In this document: piece after piece, positions 6,699 through 24,977 of the stretch
Numbering within the stretch: the stretch's first letter is position 1
Layout of the letters: each line of letters starts with the position of its first letter
From: Aequorivita sp.
GTDB lineage: Bacteria; Bacteroidota; Bacteroidia; Flavobacteriales; Flavobacteriaceae
DNA length: 51,109 nt
Reading direction: 5' to 3'
Assembly (NCBI GenBank): GCA_026646335.1
Contig: JAPKFY010000008.1
Coordinates: 1 to 51,109, forward strand
Translations under genes and position numbers: made by a program
The notes under the pieces: generated by a model
Told to the model about the DNA's origin: nothing
The model's database searches: none
What the model saw: the letters and a program-made list of their open reading frames with translations, nothing else

Positions 6699-6710
6699 CC
6701 GAACATCTCA

Positions 6711-6850
6711 AAGGGGTGCTGATTTTAGTCTTGAGTCATTAGTGCTGAGAGGTGAGTCTTAAAACTCATAACTCATAACTCATAACTCGGAACTCAAAAA
6801 AGCTGAGATTATACCCAAAGAACCTGGGCGGGTAATGCTGCCAAGGGAAC
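6711..6850 (+). promoter_or_regulatory. TPP (thi-box) riboswitch with an expanded P3 region
   Basis: ggggtgct ... gctgagattatacccaaagaacctgggcgggtaatgctgccaagggaa matches the thi-box core. Confidence 0.93.
6761..6793 (+). repeat. actcata-type interspersed repeat inside riboswitch P3
   Basis: aaaactcataactcataactcataactcggaac; 31/33 identical to 22852-22884. Confidence 0.85.
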
Positions 6851-6861
6851 AAATTGTAACC

Positions 6862-6902
6862 CCCTGTAATAATACGCGACGTATTGTTTTCAGGGATTTT
6901 TT
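6862..6902 (+). terminator. Riboswitch expression-platform terminator
   Basis: ccctgtaataatacg-cga-cgtattgttttcaggg followed by atttttt. Confidence 0.8.
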
Positions 6903-6966: not shown

Positions 6967-9147
6967 ATGAAAAAGTTATTGATTTCCGCAGTTTTAACTT
7001 CACTATTTATATCTGTTGCTGCACAGGAAAAAACACAGGATTCCACAAAGGTTGAAACTTTAGACGAGGTTTTGGTACAAGCCGTTCGCGTATCGGCAGA
7101 CTCGCCAATTACCCATTCAAACCTAGATAAAGAAGAACTTGAGAAGCGCAATCTTGGGCAGGATATTCCTTATATGCTCAATTATTTGCCTTCTGTTGTC
7201 ACTACCAGTGATGCTGGCGCGGGTGTGGGCTATACCTATATTCGTGTGCGCGGCAGTGATGCTTCGCGGGTAAATGTTACCCTCAATGGTATTCCTTATA
7301 ACGATTCCGAAAGTCAAGGAACTTTTTGGGTGAATTTGCCTGATTTTACTTCCTCGGTTCAAAGTTTGCAATTACAGCGCGGTGTGGGAACTTCTACAAA
7401 TGGTTCCGGAGCTTTTGGCGCGAGCTTGAACTTGTTGAGCGATGCTGTTTCAAATGAAGCCAATGGCGAAATTTCGAATTCCTTCGGAAGTTATAACACA
7501 CACAAGCACAATATCAAGTTCAGCACTGGCTTGCTTTCCGAGCATTTTGAATTAGCGGGAAGGTTGTCTACCATTCAATCTGATGGGTACATTGACAGGG
7601 CCAGTTCAGACTTGAAATCATATTTTTTACAAGGGGCGTTTGTTGATAGAAACACATTGATAAAAGCACTCGCTTTTGGAGGAAGAGAAGAAACATACCA
7701 GTCGTGGAACGGTTTGGAAGATCCTGAAAAACTTGAAAATGACAGATCCTACAACACCGCTGGAATGTACACCGATGAAGACGGAAACATTCAGTTTTAC
7801 GATAAAGAAGTAGATAATTATGCGCAGGATCACTATCAATTGCTTTGGAACCAGCGTTTCGATAACAATTGGAGCACGAACGTTTCTTTCAATTACACAA
7901 AAGGAAAGGGTTATTTTGAACAGTACAAAGAAGATGAAGATTTTGAAACTTATGGTTTTGAACCGATTGAAATTGGAGGTGATACAATAAATACGACCGA
8001 CTTAATCCGCCGCCGTTGGTTGGACAATGATTTTTATGCAGCCAATATTAACGTAAATTACAAAAACAATAAAATAGATTTCACGGGTGGAGCATTTTAT
8101 AGCTACTATTCGGGCGACCATTTTGGAGAAGTAATTTGGGCGCGCTACGCCAGTGATTCTGAAATCCGAGATCGTTATTACGACAGTAATGGGGCAAAAA
8201 GTGAATTCACGGTTTTTTCAAAAGCCACCTACAAAATTGATGACCAATGGAGTGCTTTTGGGGATTTGCAGGGTAGGTTTTTGAATTATAAAACTTCAGG
8301 GATTACTTCAGATTTGGTTGAAATGATTTATGACGAAGACTATTCGTTTTTTAATCCAAAAGCTGGCTTGACTTATAAATTGAATGCTGTAAATCAGTTT
8401 TATTTTTCCTACGGAAAAGCACATCGCGAACCTTCCCGAAATGATTACGAACAGGGAATAATTACTCCGGAAAAGTTGGACGATTTTGAACTTGGCTGGC
8501 GTTTCGCTTCTGAAAAAACAAAAGTGAATACGAATGTTTTTTATATGAATTACAAAGATCAATTGGTGCTTTCCGGCGAATTGAATGACGTTGGCGCAGG
8601 TCTGCGAACCAGCAGCGGGAAAAGCTATCGTTTAGGTTTGGAAGTGGATGCCGAAATACAGCTTTTGAAAAACTTGAGAACCTTGCCGAATATCGCTTTG
8701 AGTACCAATAAAAATGTAGATTTTGTTAGCTCTCGCAATGGTGAATTAGTGAATCTTGGCAACACAAACATTTCGTTTTCACCTTCAGTAGTTGCGGCAA
8801 ATATGCTGGAATATTCGCCAATCCAGAAATTGCAAATCGGGTTTTTGTCAAAATTTGTGGGAGAACAGTATATGGGAAATATTGATAGTGAAGCTTCAAA
8901 GTTAGATAGTTACTTCATAAATGATTTTAATATTGTTTACACTTTGGACGAACTTCCGTGGATAAAAGAAGTGGTTTTCTCGGCCTTGGTGAACAATATA
9001 TTCAACGTGAAATATATTTCCAACGGCTATTTTTATACGTACGATGATGACTTCAGCAATCCGGGAACGGTTACTACTGTTGAAGGTGCTGGGTATTATC
9101 CACAGGCGACGATTAATTTTTTGGTTGGGGCTACGGTGAAGTTTTAG
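6967..9147 (+). CDS. TonB-dependent outer-membrane receptor, probable thiamin transporter
   Basis: Plug domain SNLDKEELEKRNLGQDIPYMLNYLPSVV, beta-barrel C terminus; preceded by TPP riboswitch. Confidence 0.9.
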   Translation: MKKLLISAVLTSLFISVAAQEKTQDSTKVETLDEVLVQAVRVSADSPITHSNLDKEELEKRNLGQDIPYMLNYLPSVVTTSDAGAGVGYTYIRVRGSDASRVNVTLNGIPYNDSESQGTFWVNLPDFTSSVQSLQLQRGVGTSTNGSGAFGASLNLLSDAVSNEANGEISNSFGSYNTHKHNIKFSTGLLSEHFELAGRLSTIQSDGYIDRASSDLKSYFLQGAFVDRNTLIKALAFGGREETYQSWNGLEDPEKLENDRSYNTAGMYTDEDGNIQFYDKEVDNYAQDHYQLLWNQRFDNNWSTNVSFNYTKGKGYFEQYKEDEDFETYGFEPIEIGGDTINTTDLIRRRWLDNDFYAANINVNYKNNKIDFTGGAFYSYYSGDHFGEVIWARYASDSEIRDRYYDSNGAKSEFTVFSKATYKIDDQWSAFGDLQGRFLNYKTSGITSDLVEMIYDEDYSFFNPKAGLTYKLNAVNQFYFSYGKAHREPSRNDYEQGIITPEKLDDFELGWRFASEKTKVNTNVFYMNYKDQLVLSGELNDVGAGLRTSSGKSYRLGLEVDAEIQLLKNLRTLPNIALSTNKNVDFVSSRNGELVNLGNTNISFSPSVVAANMLEYSPIQKLQIGFLSKFVGEQYMGNIDSEASKLDSYFINDFNIVYTLDELPWIKEVVFSALVNNIFNVKYISNGYFYTYDDDFSNPGTVTTVEGAGYYPQATINFLVGATVKF

Positions 9148-21923: not shown

Positions 21924-24900
21924 ATGAGCAAATATCACTTCAACGAAATAGAAGCAAAATGGCAAAAGCATTGGGCCAAAAACCAAACTTTTAAAGCTGT
22001 TAATCCCTCCCCTTCGGGGGGAGGCCAGGAGGGAGACAAGCCAAAATACTATGTTTTGGATATGTTTCCCTATCCTTCCGGTGCTGGTTTGCACGTTGGG
22101 CATCCACTCGGCTACATTGCCAGTGATATTTATGCGCGCTACAAACGCCACCAAGGTTTTAATGTTTTGCATCCGCAGGGTTATGATTCCTTTGGGCTTC
22201 CGGCGGAACAGTATGCAATCCAAACCGGTCAACATCCCGCAAAAACTACTGAGGAAAACATTGCACGTTACCGCGAACAGTTGGATAAATTAGGGTTTTC
22301 ATTCGATTGGAGCCGCGAAGTTCGCACCAGCAATCCCGAATATTACAAATGGACACAGTGGATTTTCATTCAGCTTTTTGAATCTTGGTATTGTAAACAC
22401 GCCAATAAAGCGTTTCATATTTCGGAACTGATTGAAGTTTTTGAAGCAGAAGGAAATTACAATGTAGAAGCGGTTTGCGATGATAATGTTGAAATTTTTA
22501 CTTCAAAACAATGGCTCGATTTTTCAGAAACTAAAAAGCAGGAAATCCTTTTAAAATACAGACTTACCTATTTAGCCGAAACCGAAGTAAACTGGTGCCC
22601 ACAGCTAGGAACCGTTTTGGCGAATGACGAAATAGTGAATGGCGTTTCCGAGCGCGGCGGTTATCCCGTTGTCCGCAAAAAGATGAAACAGTGGAGTATG
22701 CGAATCACTGCGTATGCCCAACGTTTATTGGACGGACTGAACGAAATAGATTGGCCGCAACCGCTGAAGGATTCACAAACCAATTGGATTGGACGTTCCA
22801 AAGGTGCGACTGTTAAGTTCAGAGTTATGAGTTCAGAGTTAGGAAAAGGAGAAAACTCATCACTCATAACTCATAACTCTGAACTTGAAATTCCAGTTTT
22901 TACTACAAGACCTGACACTATTTTTGGAGTTAGTTTTATGACGCTTGCGCCGGAACACGATTTGGTTTCAAAAATCACGACTGCCGAACAAAAAGAAGCA
23001 GTTGAAAACTACATTGAAGCAACCGCAAAACGCAGCGAGCGCGAGCGAATGGCAGATGTAAAAACCATTACAGGCGTTTTTACGGGCGCGTATGCTGAGC
23101 ATCCTTTTTCAGGAGAGCAAATTCCAATCTGGATTGGCGATTACGTATTGGTGGGCTACGGAACGGGTGCCGTAATGAGCGTTCCCTGCGGCGATCAGCG
23201 CGATTATGATTTTGCGAAACATTTCAATTTACCGATTCCGAATATATTTAAGGATGCGGATATTTCTGAGGAAGCCTATTCCGATAAGGAAAATACAATT
23301 ATCACAAATAGCGACTTTTTAAATGGTCTAAATTATTCCGAAGCCACTGATAAAATAATCGCTGCCTTGGAGGAAAAAGGGATTGGCAAAGGCAAAATAA
23401 ATTACCGTTTGCGCGATGCCGTTTTTAGTCGCCAGCGGTATTGGGGCGAGCCGTTCCCGATTTATTACAAAGACGGAATGCCGCAAATTATCCCGACCGA
23501 ATGTTTGCCATTGCGCCTGCCCGATGTTGAAAAATATTTACCCACCGAAGAAGGCGAACCGCCTTTGGGCCGTGCTGATGATTGGGCATGGGATGTTGAA
23601 AAGTTGTCGGTTGTCAGTCGTCAGTTGATTGACCACAAAACCGTTTTTCCTTTGGAATTGAATACGATGCCCGGCTGGGCGGGAAGCAGTTGGTACTTTT
23701 TCCGATATATGGAAGATGAAAAACGCGACGAGGTTTTTGCCTCAAAAGAAGCTTTGGACTATTGGCAAAACGTGGATTTATACATAGGTGGCAGCGAGCA
23801 CGCTACTGGCCATTTGTTGTACAGCCGTTTTTGGGTAAAATTTATGCTCGACCGCGGTTTTGTAAATGTGGAAGAACCATTTAAGAAGTTGATAAACCAA
23901 GGGATGATTTTGGGGGAGAGTGCACTGATATATATGTTACAACCTACTGACTTGCCTCCTATTTTCATTTCAAAAGAAATTTATGAAAAAGAAGAAATAG
24001 ATCTTAAAGAAACAGGTAAAAGGGGAGATCTGTACGATTTATATTCAATTATATTTAAGAAGTATAATTTAAATAGTCCGGCTGGATTTGTTCATCAAAC
24101 TGTACATGCCGATGTTTCATTTGTAAATATTCAAAATGAATTAGACATCGAAGCTTTTAAAAATTGGAGACCAGAATACAAATACGCTATTTTCATTTTG
24201 GAAGATGGAAGTGTGTACGAACTAAACTCCTCCCCTTCGGGGAGGCCGGGAGGGGCCTTCAAAGTATCCCGCGAAGTAGAAAAAATGTCCAAATCCAAAT
24301 ACAACGTGGTAAACCCCGATGATATTTGCAACCAATACGGGGCAGATACTTTGCGGATGTACGAAATGTTCCTCGGCCCGCTGGAGCAGGCAAAACCTTG
24401 GAACACCGCTGGAATTACTGGCGTACACGGTTTCCTAAAAAAACTTTGGAAACTCTACCATTCTGGTCCGGATGAAAGTTTTTACGTAACGGACACCCCT
24501 CTTTCGGAGGGGCAGGGGGAGGCCTTGAAAACGCTTCATAAAACCATCAAAAAAGTACAGGAAGACATTGAGAATTTCAGTTTTAACACTTCGGTTTCGT
24601 CTTTTATGATTGCGGTGAACGAGCTTATTTCCCAAAATTGTAATTCGCGGGAAGTGTTGGAGCCTTTGGCAATACTTATTTCGCCTTACGCGCCGCACAT
24701 TGCGGAAGAACTTTGGCAGAAATTGGGGCATTCGGAAAGTATTGCCACAGCAGTTTTTCCAAAATTTGAACAGAAATTTTTAGTGGAGAGCAGCAAGGAA
24801 TATCCAATCTCTTTCAACGGAAAAATGCGCTTTACTTTGGAACTGCCTTTGGATTTAACAAAAGAAGAAATAGAATCTGCCGTAATGGCACACGAGAAAA

Positions 24901-24977
24901 CAGCCCAGTATTTGGAAGGTCGCGCGCCGAAAAAGGTAATTATCGTGCCCGGAAAAATTGTGAATATCGTAGGTTAA
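21924..24977 (+). CDS. leuS: Leucyl-tRNA synthetase carrying in-frame repeat insertions
   Basis: PYPSGAGLHVGHPLGY, FTTRPDTIFG, ELNTMPGWAGSSWYF, KMSKS. Confidence 0.98.
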   Translation: MSKYHFNEIEAKWQKHWAKNQTFKAVNPSPSGGGQEGDKPKYYVLDMFPYPSGAGLHVGHPLGYIASDIYARYKRHQGFNVLHPQGYDSFGLPAEQYAIQTGQHPAKTTEENIARYREQLDKLGFSFDWSREVRTSNPEYYKWTQWIFIQLFESWYCKHANKAFHISELIEVFEAEGNYNVEAVCDDNVEIFTSKQWLDFSETKKQEILLKYRLTYLAETEVNWCPQLGTVLANDEIVNGVSERGGYPVVRKKMKQWSMRITAYAQRLLDGLNEIDWPQPLKDSQTNWIGRSKGATVKFRVMSSELGKGENSSLITHNSELEIPVFTTRPDTIFGVSFMTLAPEHDLVSKITTAEQKEAVENYIEATAKRSERERMADVKTITGVFTGAYAEHPFSGEQIPIWIGDYVLVGYGTGAVMSVPCGDQRDYDFAKHFNLPIPNIFKDADISEEAYSDKENTIITNSDFLNGLNYSEATDKIIAALEEKGIGKGKINYRLRDAVFSRQRYWGEPFPIYYKDGMPQIIPTECLPLRLPDVEKYLPTEEGEPPLGRADDWAWDVEKLSVVSRQLIDHKTVFPLELNTMPGWAGSSWYFFRYMEDEKRDEVFASKEALDYWQNVDLYIGGSEHATGHLLYSRFWVKFMLDRGFVNVEEPFKKLINQGMILGESALIYMLQPTDLPPIFISKEIYEKEEIDLKETGKRGDLYDLYSIIFKKYNLNSPAGFVHQTVHADVSFVNIQNELDIEAFKNWRPEYKYAIFILEDGSVYELNSSPSGRPGGAFKVSREVEKMSKSKYNVVNPDDICNQYGADTLRMYEMFLGPLEQAKPWNTAGITGVHGFLKKLWKLYHSGPDESFYVTDTPLSEGQGEALKTLHKTIKKVQEDIENFSFNTSVSSFMIAVNELISQNCNSREVLEPLAILISPYAPHIAEELWQKLGHSESIATAVFPKFEQKFLVESSKEYPISFNGKMRFTLELPLDLTKEEIESAVMAHEKTAQYLEGRAPKKVIIVPGKIVNIVG
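22004..22036 (+). repeat. In-frame UUCG-hairpin repeat in leuS, copy 1
   Basis: tccctccccttcggggggaggccaggagggaga. Confidence 0.85.
22815..22886 (+). repeat. In-frame AT-rich inverted repeat in leuS
   Basis: aagttcagagttatgagt (22815-22832) and actcataactctgaactt (22869-22886) are perfect reverse complements. Confidence 0.92.
24227..24260 (+). repeat. In-frame UUCG-hairpin repeat in leuS, copy 2
   Basis: ctcctccccttcggggaggccgggaggggcctt; core matches copy 1 apart from a 2-nt indel and one substitution. Confidence 0.85.
24493..24526 (+). repeat. In-frame UUCG-hairpin repeat in leuS, copy 3 (diverged)
   Basis: acacccctctttcggaggggcagggggaggcctt. Confidence 0.75.

Follow-up and report, generated by a model that had tools for sequence, protein, structure and literature searches.

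The Rickettsia palindromic elements and REP/MITE-like sequences are small dispersed palindromes, some of which lie in frame within genes. Heterocyst-forming cyanobacteria reportedly have STRR heptanucleotide repeats in their RNase P RNA gene, and heptanucleotide repeats within a structured RNA are in this respect a known phenomenon. The same is true of variation in the peripheral stems of the TPP riboswitch (THI element, RF00059), which differ in length, as exemplified by P3a in diatoms (PMC9544697). Direct repeats of the heptamer TAACTGA are dispersed in Beggiatoaceae, Cyanobacteria, and some Bacteroidetes, mostly in intergenic regions and just 5′ of start codons, where a translational role has been proposed; riboswitches go unmentioned in that account (PMC4679880). 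That one riboswitch helix should repeatedly have its entire heptad hairpin replaced by an unrelated one, as described here for Aequorivita and other Flavobacteriaceae, looks new. A search of the open literature, with subscription papers outside its scope, turned up no account of riboswitches in Bacteroidetes that carry heptad palindromes.

The DNA analyzed, a stretch of 51,109 nucleotides referred to here as the window, belongs to a 3.05 Mb genome (G000) whose nearest relatives are Aequorivita species of the Flavobacteriaceae. A permissive covariance-model scan aligned RF00059 end to end (model positions 1–105) over 6702–6865 on the plus strand, with extra bases in the P3 loop. GGGGTGC (6713–6719), which supplies the 5′ strand of P2 and the base of P3, is followed in order by GCTGAGA (6802–6808), the conserved TPP-binding segment, and by a stretch (6813–6826) comprising ACCC (the 3′ strand of P2), AAA, and the core segment GAACCTG, the last three placed by sequence and model alignment; P2 and P4/P5 are present as well. 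As with described TPP riboswitches, these elements lie 5′ of a presumed thiamine transport gene, here a TonB-dependent receptor gene at 6967–9147 (+) with plug and barrel domains (Pfam PF00593 and PF07715), presumed to encode a thiamine receptor because of the riboswitch in its leader. The difference from the described systems is that P3 consists of a genomic heptad repeat, in place of which close relatives carry unrelated ones.

In a search of 401 bases, the Infernal match scores 27.7 bits with an E value of 0.0015, under the 54.3-bit gathering score of RF00059, so that a default Rfam scan overlooks this riboswitch; the cut-off is a library threshold and no structural feature. Both the long P3 insert and the lack of a P3a depress the score, and the 82-nt insertion in P3 is probably what takes it below the cut-off. 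Combined with a weak P1 closing helix, most of whose pairs in the covariance-model alignment are non-standard, the low score might suggest that the insertion broke the aptamer and that the leader is now a non-functional relic. We consider decay of this kind very improbable. Core and terminator are intact both in the window and in relatives with a long P3, the receptor gene is likewise intact, and low scores are usual in this group: most related genomes have TPP matches, yet only 38 of 148 exceed the RF00059 cut-off. Matches to ROSE_2 and MIR6288 in the permissive scan were dismissed as far under their own cut-offs. Elsewhere in the window, a ribosomal protein leader (S16-Flavobacteria, RF03138; 50089–50122, −) scores 42.5 bits, above its cut-off.

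A first-pass annotation, made from the letters of the window, had pointed to 33 AT-rich bases (6761–6793) said to match a segment of leuS (22852–22884) at 31 positions, to sit between two thi-box segments, and to face a decayed complementary arm. These statements proved accurate: the two 33-mers read as quoted and differ by two mismatches, GGGGTGC and GCTGAGA flank the repeat, and the upstream elements TTGAGT (6731–6736) and GGTGAGT (6751–6757) still pair with it in the predicted fold. The covariance-model alignment, a check named beforehand, puts the repeat inside P3 and rules out a location outside it. The feature extends well beyond the 33 bases, to the full 82-nt P3 (6720–6801, +), a GAGTT-type hairpin built of GAGTT-NN/AACTC-NN heptads with about five paired and two spacer bases per unit and about five units per arm. 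Its 3′ arm (6763–6796, +) was resolved by Tandem Repeats Finder as 4.9 copies of AACTCAT, and its 5′ arm (6731–6759, +), delimited from the fold and from alignment with relatives, is a diverged complement of the 3′ arm. Considered by itself, P3 shows a period-7 z of 8.1 and folds better than its shuffles (z = −3.0); the fold of the whole leader reaches z = −4.1. The repeat unit, TAACTCA, is one base apart from the dispersed TAACTGA heptamer, itself a 7-nt repeat, but forms two-armed hairpins in an aptamer helix rather than direct repeats.

The leuS copy is also two-armed (22815–22886, +; delimited by sequence and by pattern matches on both strands) and lies in frame just 5′ of the TTRPDT motif of the editing domain; at that point, no heptad hairpin is found in relatives such as L231 and L234. 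A scan for ACTCATAACTCATAACTC on both strands with up to three mismatches gave nine matches, all at the P3 and leuS loci, where 0.02 were expected, ruling out a chance likeness of two AT-rich stretches. The point before TTRPDT is an insertion hot spot of LeuRS in Aequorivita (window 22815–22890; L229–L257), occupied by nothing, by a heptad hairpin, by a VPSSAVEKS stretch, or by an in-frame DUF559 domain. DUF559 nuclease-like inserts of roughly 100–150 residues occur in L246, L247, L248, L250, and L255; that of L246, the one tested against Pfam, matches PF04480 with an E value of 4.7e-35. No description of DUF559 within LeuRS appeared in the open literature searched, subscription papers being outside that scope. 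The leuS gene of the window (21924–24977) contains further repeat-like or variable stretches: NPSPSGGGQEGD close to the N terminus; LSVVSRQL, with the heptad AGTTGTC, at 23602–23627; SSPSGRPGGA close to the C-terminal third; and a variable segment flanked by INQGMI and HADVS.

Within its own genome, the GAGTT/AACTC family occupies about eleven places, including P3, leuS, and prmC, the remaining copies lying outside any long open frame. The gene identified by its sequence as prmC (G000:C126:1917-1942, L002) carries one-arm AACTCAT heptads in frame, SEQKLITHNSQPIT, directly followed by the methyltransferase motif GTGSGCIA. When the complete hairpin of L038 was used as a query, all 19 Aequorivita genomes gave matches, whereas the five genomes tested from other genera gave none. 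Several of these span most of the hairpin at loci unlinked to the riboswitch, with 79–87% identity, and three of them share one conserved intergenic place. The family thus consists of tandem 7-nt units at many loci and is palindromic, dispersed, and multi-copy, resembling the Rickettsia palindromic elements and REP/MITE-like sequences in its in-frame occurrences in leuS and prmC. It differs from them in being built of 7-nt units. Its ends vary from locus to locus, and no target duplication is visible where P3s have been swapped.

To place this P3 among its relatives, 80 orthologous flavobacterial leaders were compared with that of the window (81 sequences in total), the core segments being searched with at most one substitution each. 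All 80 orthologues retain the core segments, GGGGTGC and GCTGAGA included, while P3 ranges from 8 to 94 nt with a bimodal distribution: 40 of the 81 sequences have a P3 of 32 nt or less, 6 fall between 34 and 69 nt, and 35 between 70 and 94 nt. Most long P3s are heptad hairpins, belonging to at least three unrelated families besides less clear ones. GAGTT-type hairpins are found in the window and in L032, L033, L038, L042, L044–L046, and L058; the TACGA type in L029, L030, L035, L048, L051, and L056; and the GATTG type in L031, L034, L036, L039, L041, L043, and L100. No period-7 signal was seen in the long P3s of L079, L097, and L099. The orthologues therefore differ in P3 sequence, the second point named for checking beforehand. 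The proposal that one repeat family had colonized both an aptamer helix and a coding sequence is supported, as the same hairpin occurs in P3 and in frame in leuS. It needs one correction: P3 receives more than a single repeat family, for relatives have there either a short stub or a heptad hairpin from one of at least three unrelated families. The cyanobacterial STRR repeats likewise lie in tandem inside a structured RNA gene, but in another RNA and another phylum, and here a single helix of a ligand-binding RNA is filled alternately by two-armed hairpins of several unrelated families.

P3 occupants change often. Changes were counted on a tree of the receptor protein, whose gene is linked to the leader. 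On this quick reconstruction, which has several weak forks, a minimum of 19 changes of P3 type falls among 42 sequences and a minimum of nine among 19 Aequorivita. The leaders of L047 and L049 are near-identical to that of L048 on both sides of P3, yet their P3s are unrelated, and the switch falls exactly at the core; L030 and L046 form a second such case. These two cases are the strongest evidence for P3 interchange. Neither displays a visible target duplication, and the leaders compared yielded no recent insertion with a duplicated target. A second unrelated stretch distinguishes L048 from L047 and L049 just 3′ of the aptamer, before the receptor gene. By eye, the TACGA-type P3 of L030 looks like that of the more distant species L035, a likeness suggestive of transfer through recombination. 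The flanks of the window's P3 are common to other GAGTT-type species, so the insertion would either be older than the window's own lineage or have come by recombination.

An alternative is that ancestral short P3s grew long in place, through 7-nt replication slippage and palindrome-restoring template switching, and that they resemble repeats elsewhere because one mutational process is at work throughout, with no copy transferred. Heptads of many kinds, reversed control patterns included, are indeed common in these genomes; according to PMC4679880, the survey of Mrazek et al. (2007) found heptanucleotide repeats to be the most abundant class in most of its genomes; and the P3 of L034 is short of about one heptad relative to other GATTG-type P3s. 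We nevertheless judge in-place growth unlikely, given that a complete two-arm GAGTT hairpin recurs at the unlinked loci noted above, that near-identical leaders differ by an entire unrelated P3 with no intermediate, and that the GAGTT-type P3 keeps a length of 82–83 nt across eight species. This constancy hints at constraint rather than free drift, and it leaves phase variation of the switch by heptad slippage unsupported.

Dispersed GAGTT copies are more numerous in genomes whose P3 is of the GAGTT type (one-sided p = 0.02–0.03 with the P3 copy discounted and phylogeny ignored), and GATTG and TACGA show a like tendency (p about 0.05, P3 copies again discounted, in a test that ignores phylogeny). 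Leaving the P3 copies out of the count weakens the association, and the tendency of the P3 family to match the family abundant elsewhere in the same genome is a weak one.

Downstream of the aptamer, an intrinsic terminator is predicted at 6860–6902 (+), in which CCCCCTG pairs with CAGGG ahead of six T. It is kept in Aequorivita leaders through stem changes on both sides (AATAC/GTATT, AATGC/GCATT, ATTGC/GCAAT); in L044 the T run is shorter. GGGGT (6713–6717) could pair with ACCCC (6859–6863) as an antiterminator, a plausible arrangement for a TPP-off switch. The riboswitch most likely still works by terminating transcription: with TPP present, the core would form and leave CCCCCTG free for the terminator, and with TPP absent, the GGGGT–ACCCC pairing would block it. 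For the Aequorivita leaders, a structure that has P2 and keeps GCUGAGA mostly unpaired is predicted to lie 0–3.5 kcal/mol from the minimum. Judging from the conservation of core and terminator and from these folds, riboswitch function, ligand binding included, would survive the P3 insertion, as the first-pass annotation had thought possible.

The hairpin might instead be retained for a function of its own, tuning the switch through folding rate, transcription pausing, or alternative pairing of GCTGAGA, or serving as a protein-binding site. Flanks and length are conserved among GAGTT-type species, and some pairs stay paired through two-sided changes. An alternative helix between GATTTTAGT and GCTGAGATT, which hides GCTGAGA, is available in all eight GAGTT-type leaders and slightly favored there, and P3 may accordingly affect switching. 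The covariation is modest, however: of the pairs in the folded region, two-sided changes leave intact four of 31 among GAGTT-type leaders and four of 36 among GATTG-type leaders. Nor is the alternative helix favored by the GATTG and TACGA types of Aequorivita. Moreover, close relatives lack the long hairpin: P3 is only 23 nt in L037 (A. vitellina), the window's sister, and 8–9 nt in many genera. We therefore find a functional hairpin quite unlikely as the main explanation.

Other structured RNAs were searched for comparable occupants. A cobalamin riboswitch (G000:C22:8284-8552, −; L351) contains, in a variable helix flanked by GGGAAATAGG and CCTATGCTGTTCCC, heptads of the GATTG type, and its best period-7 score was unmatched in 300 mononucleotide shuffles; the cobalamin riboswitch of L336 has just a short stem at this position. 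RNase P RNA was rejected as a further landing site, as it showed no clear heptads except in L335. This RNase P RNA, from A. capsosiphonis (G160), is the longest of the set at 391 nt and has a short period-7 stretch, CCCGATTCCCGATTCCCGATAGC. A bolder reading would treat the heptad palindromes as active small mobile or copied hairpins of the Flavobacteriaceae, surviving where a self-paired hairpin is harmless, that is, in peripheral riboswitch helices (P3 of the TPP aptamer, the variable cobalamin helix) and at one LeuRS site. Under it, the DUF559 domain at the LeuRS site of relatives may point to a spreading enzyme. We offer this as speculation and think it decidedly improbable.

The reading that we consider probable is that P3 is a structurally tolerant slot in which dispersed heptad palindromes have been inserted and swapped, with aptamer and terminator predicted to work still. 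A self-complementary dispersed heptad repeat would occupy the P3 helix; as such a repeat pairs with itself, its presence there would only lengthen P3 and leave the TPP-binding core free. P3 length would be near neutral. Gains and losses of the occupant, and its replacement by unrelated heptad families, would have recurred in Aequorivita and other Flavobacteriaceae, with recombination between relatives a likely route for at least some swaps.

One practical caution is that riboswitches with repeat-filled helices drop under Rfam cut-offs, as the window's own does. More broadly, the aptamer core stays near-invariant while one of its helices is exchanged for unrelated genomic repeats between close relatives. 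These leaders form a natural P3-swap series with which the freedom of a riboswitch to vary could be tested, and they offer a handle on the spread of heptad palindromes.
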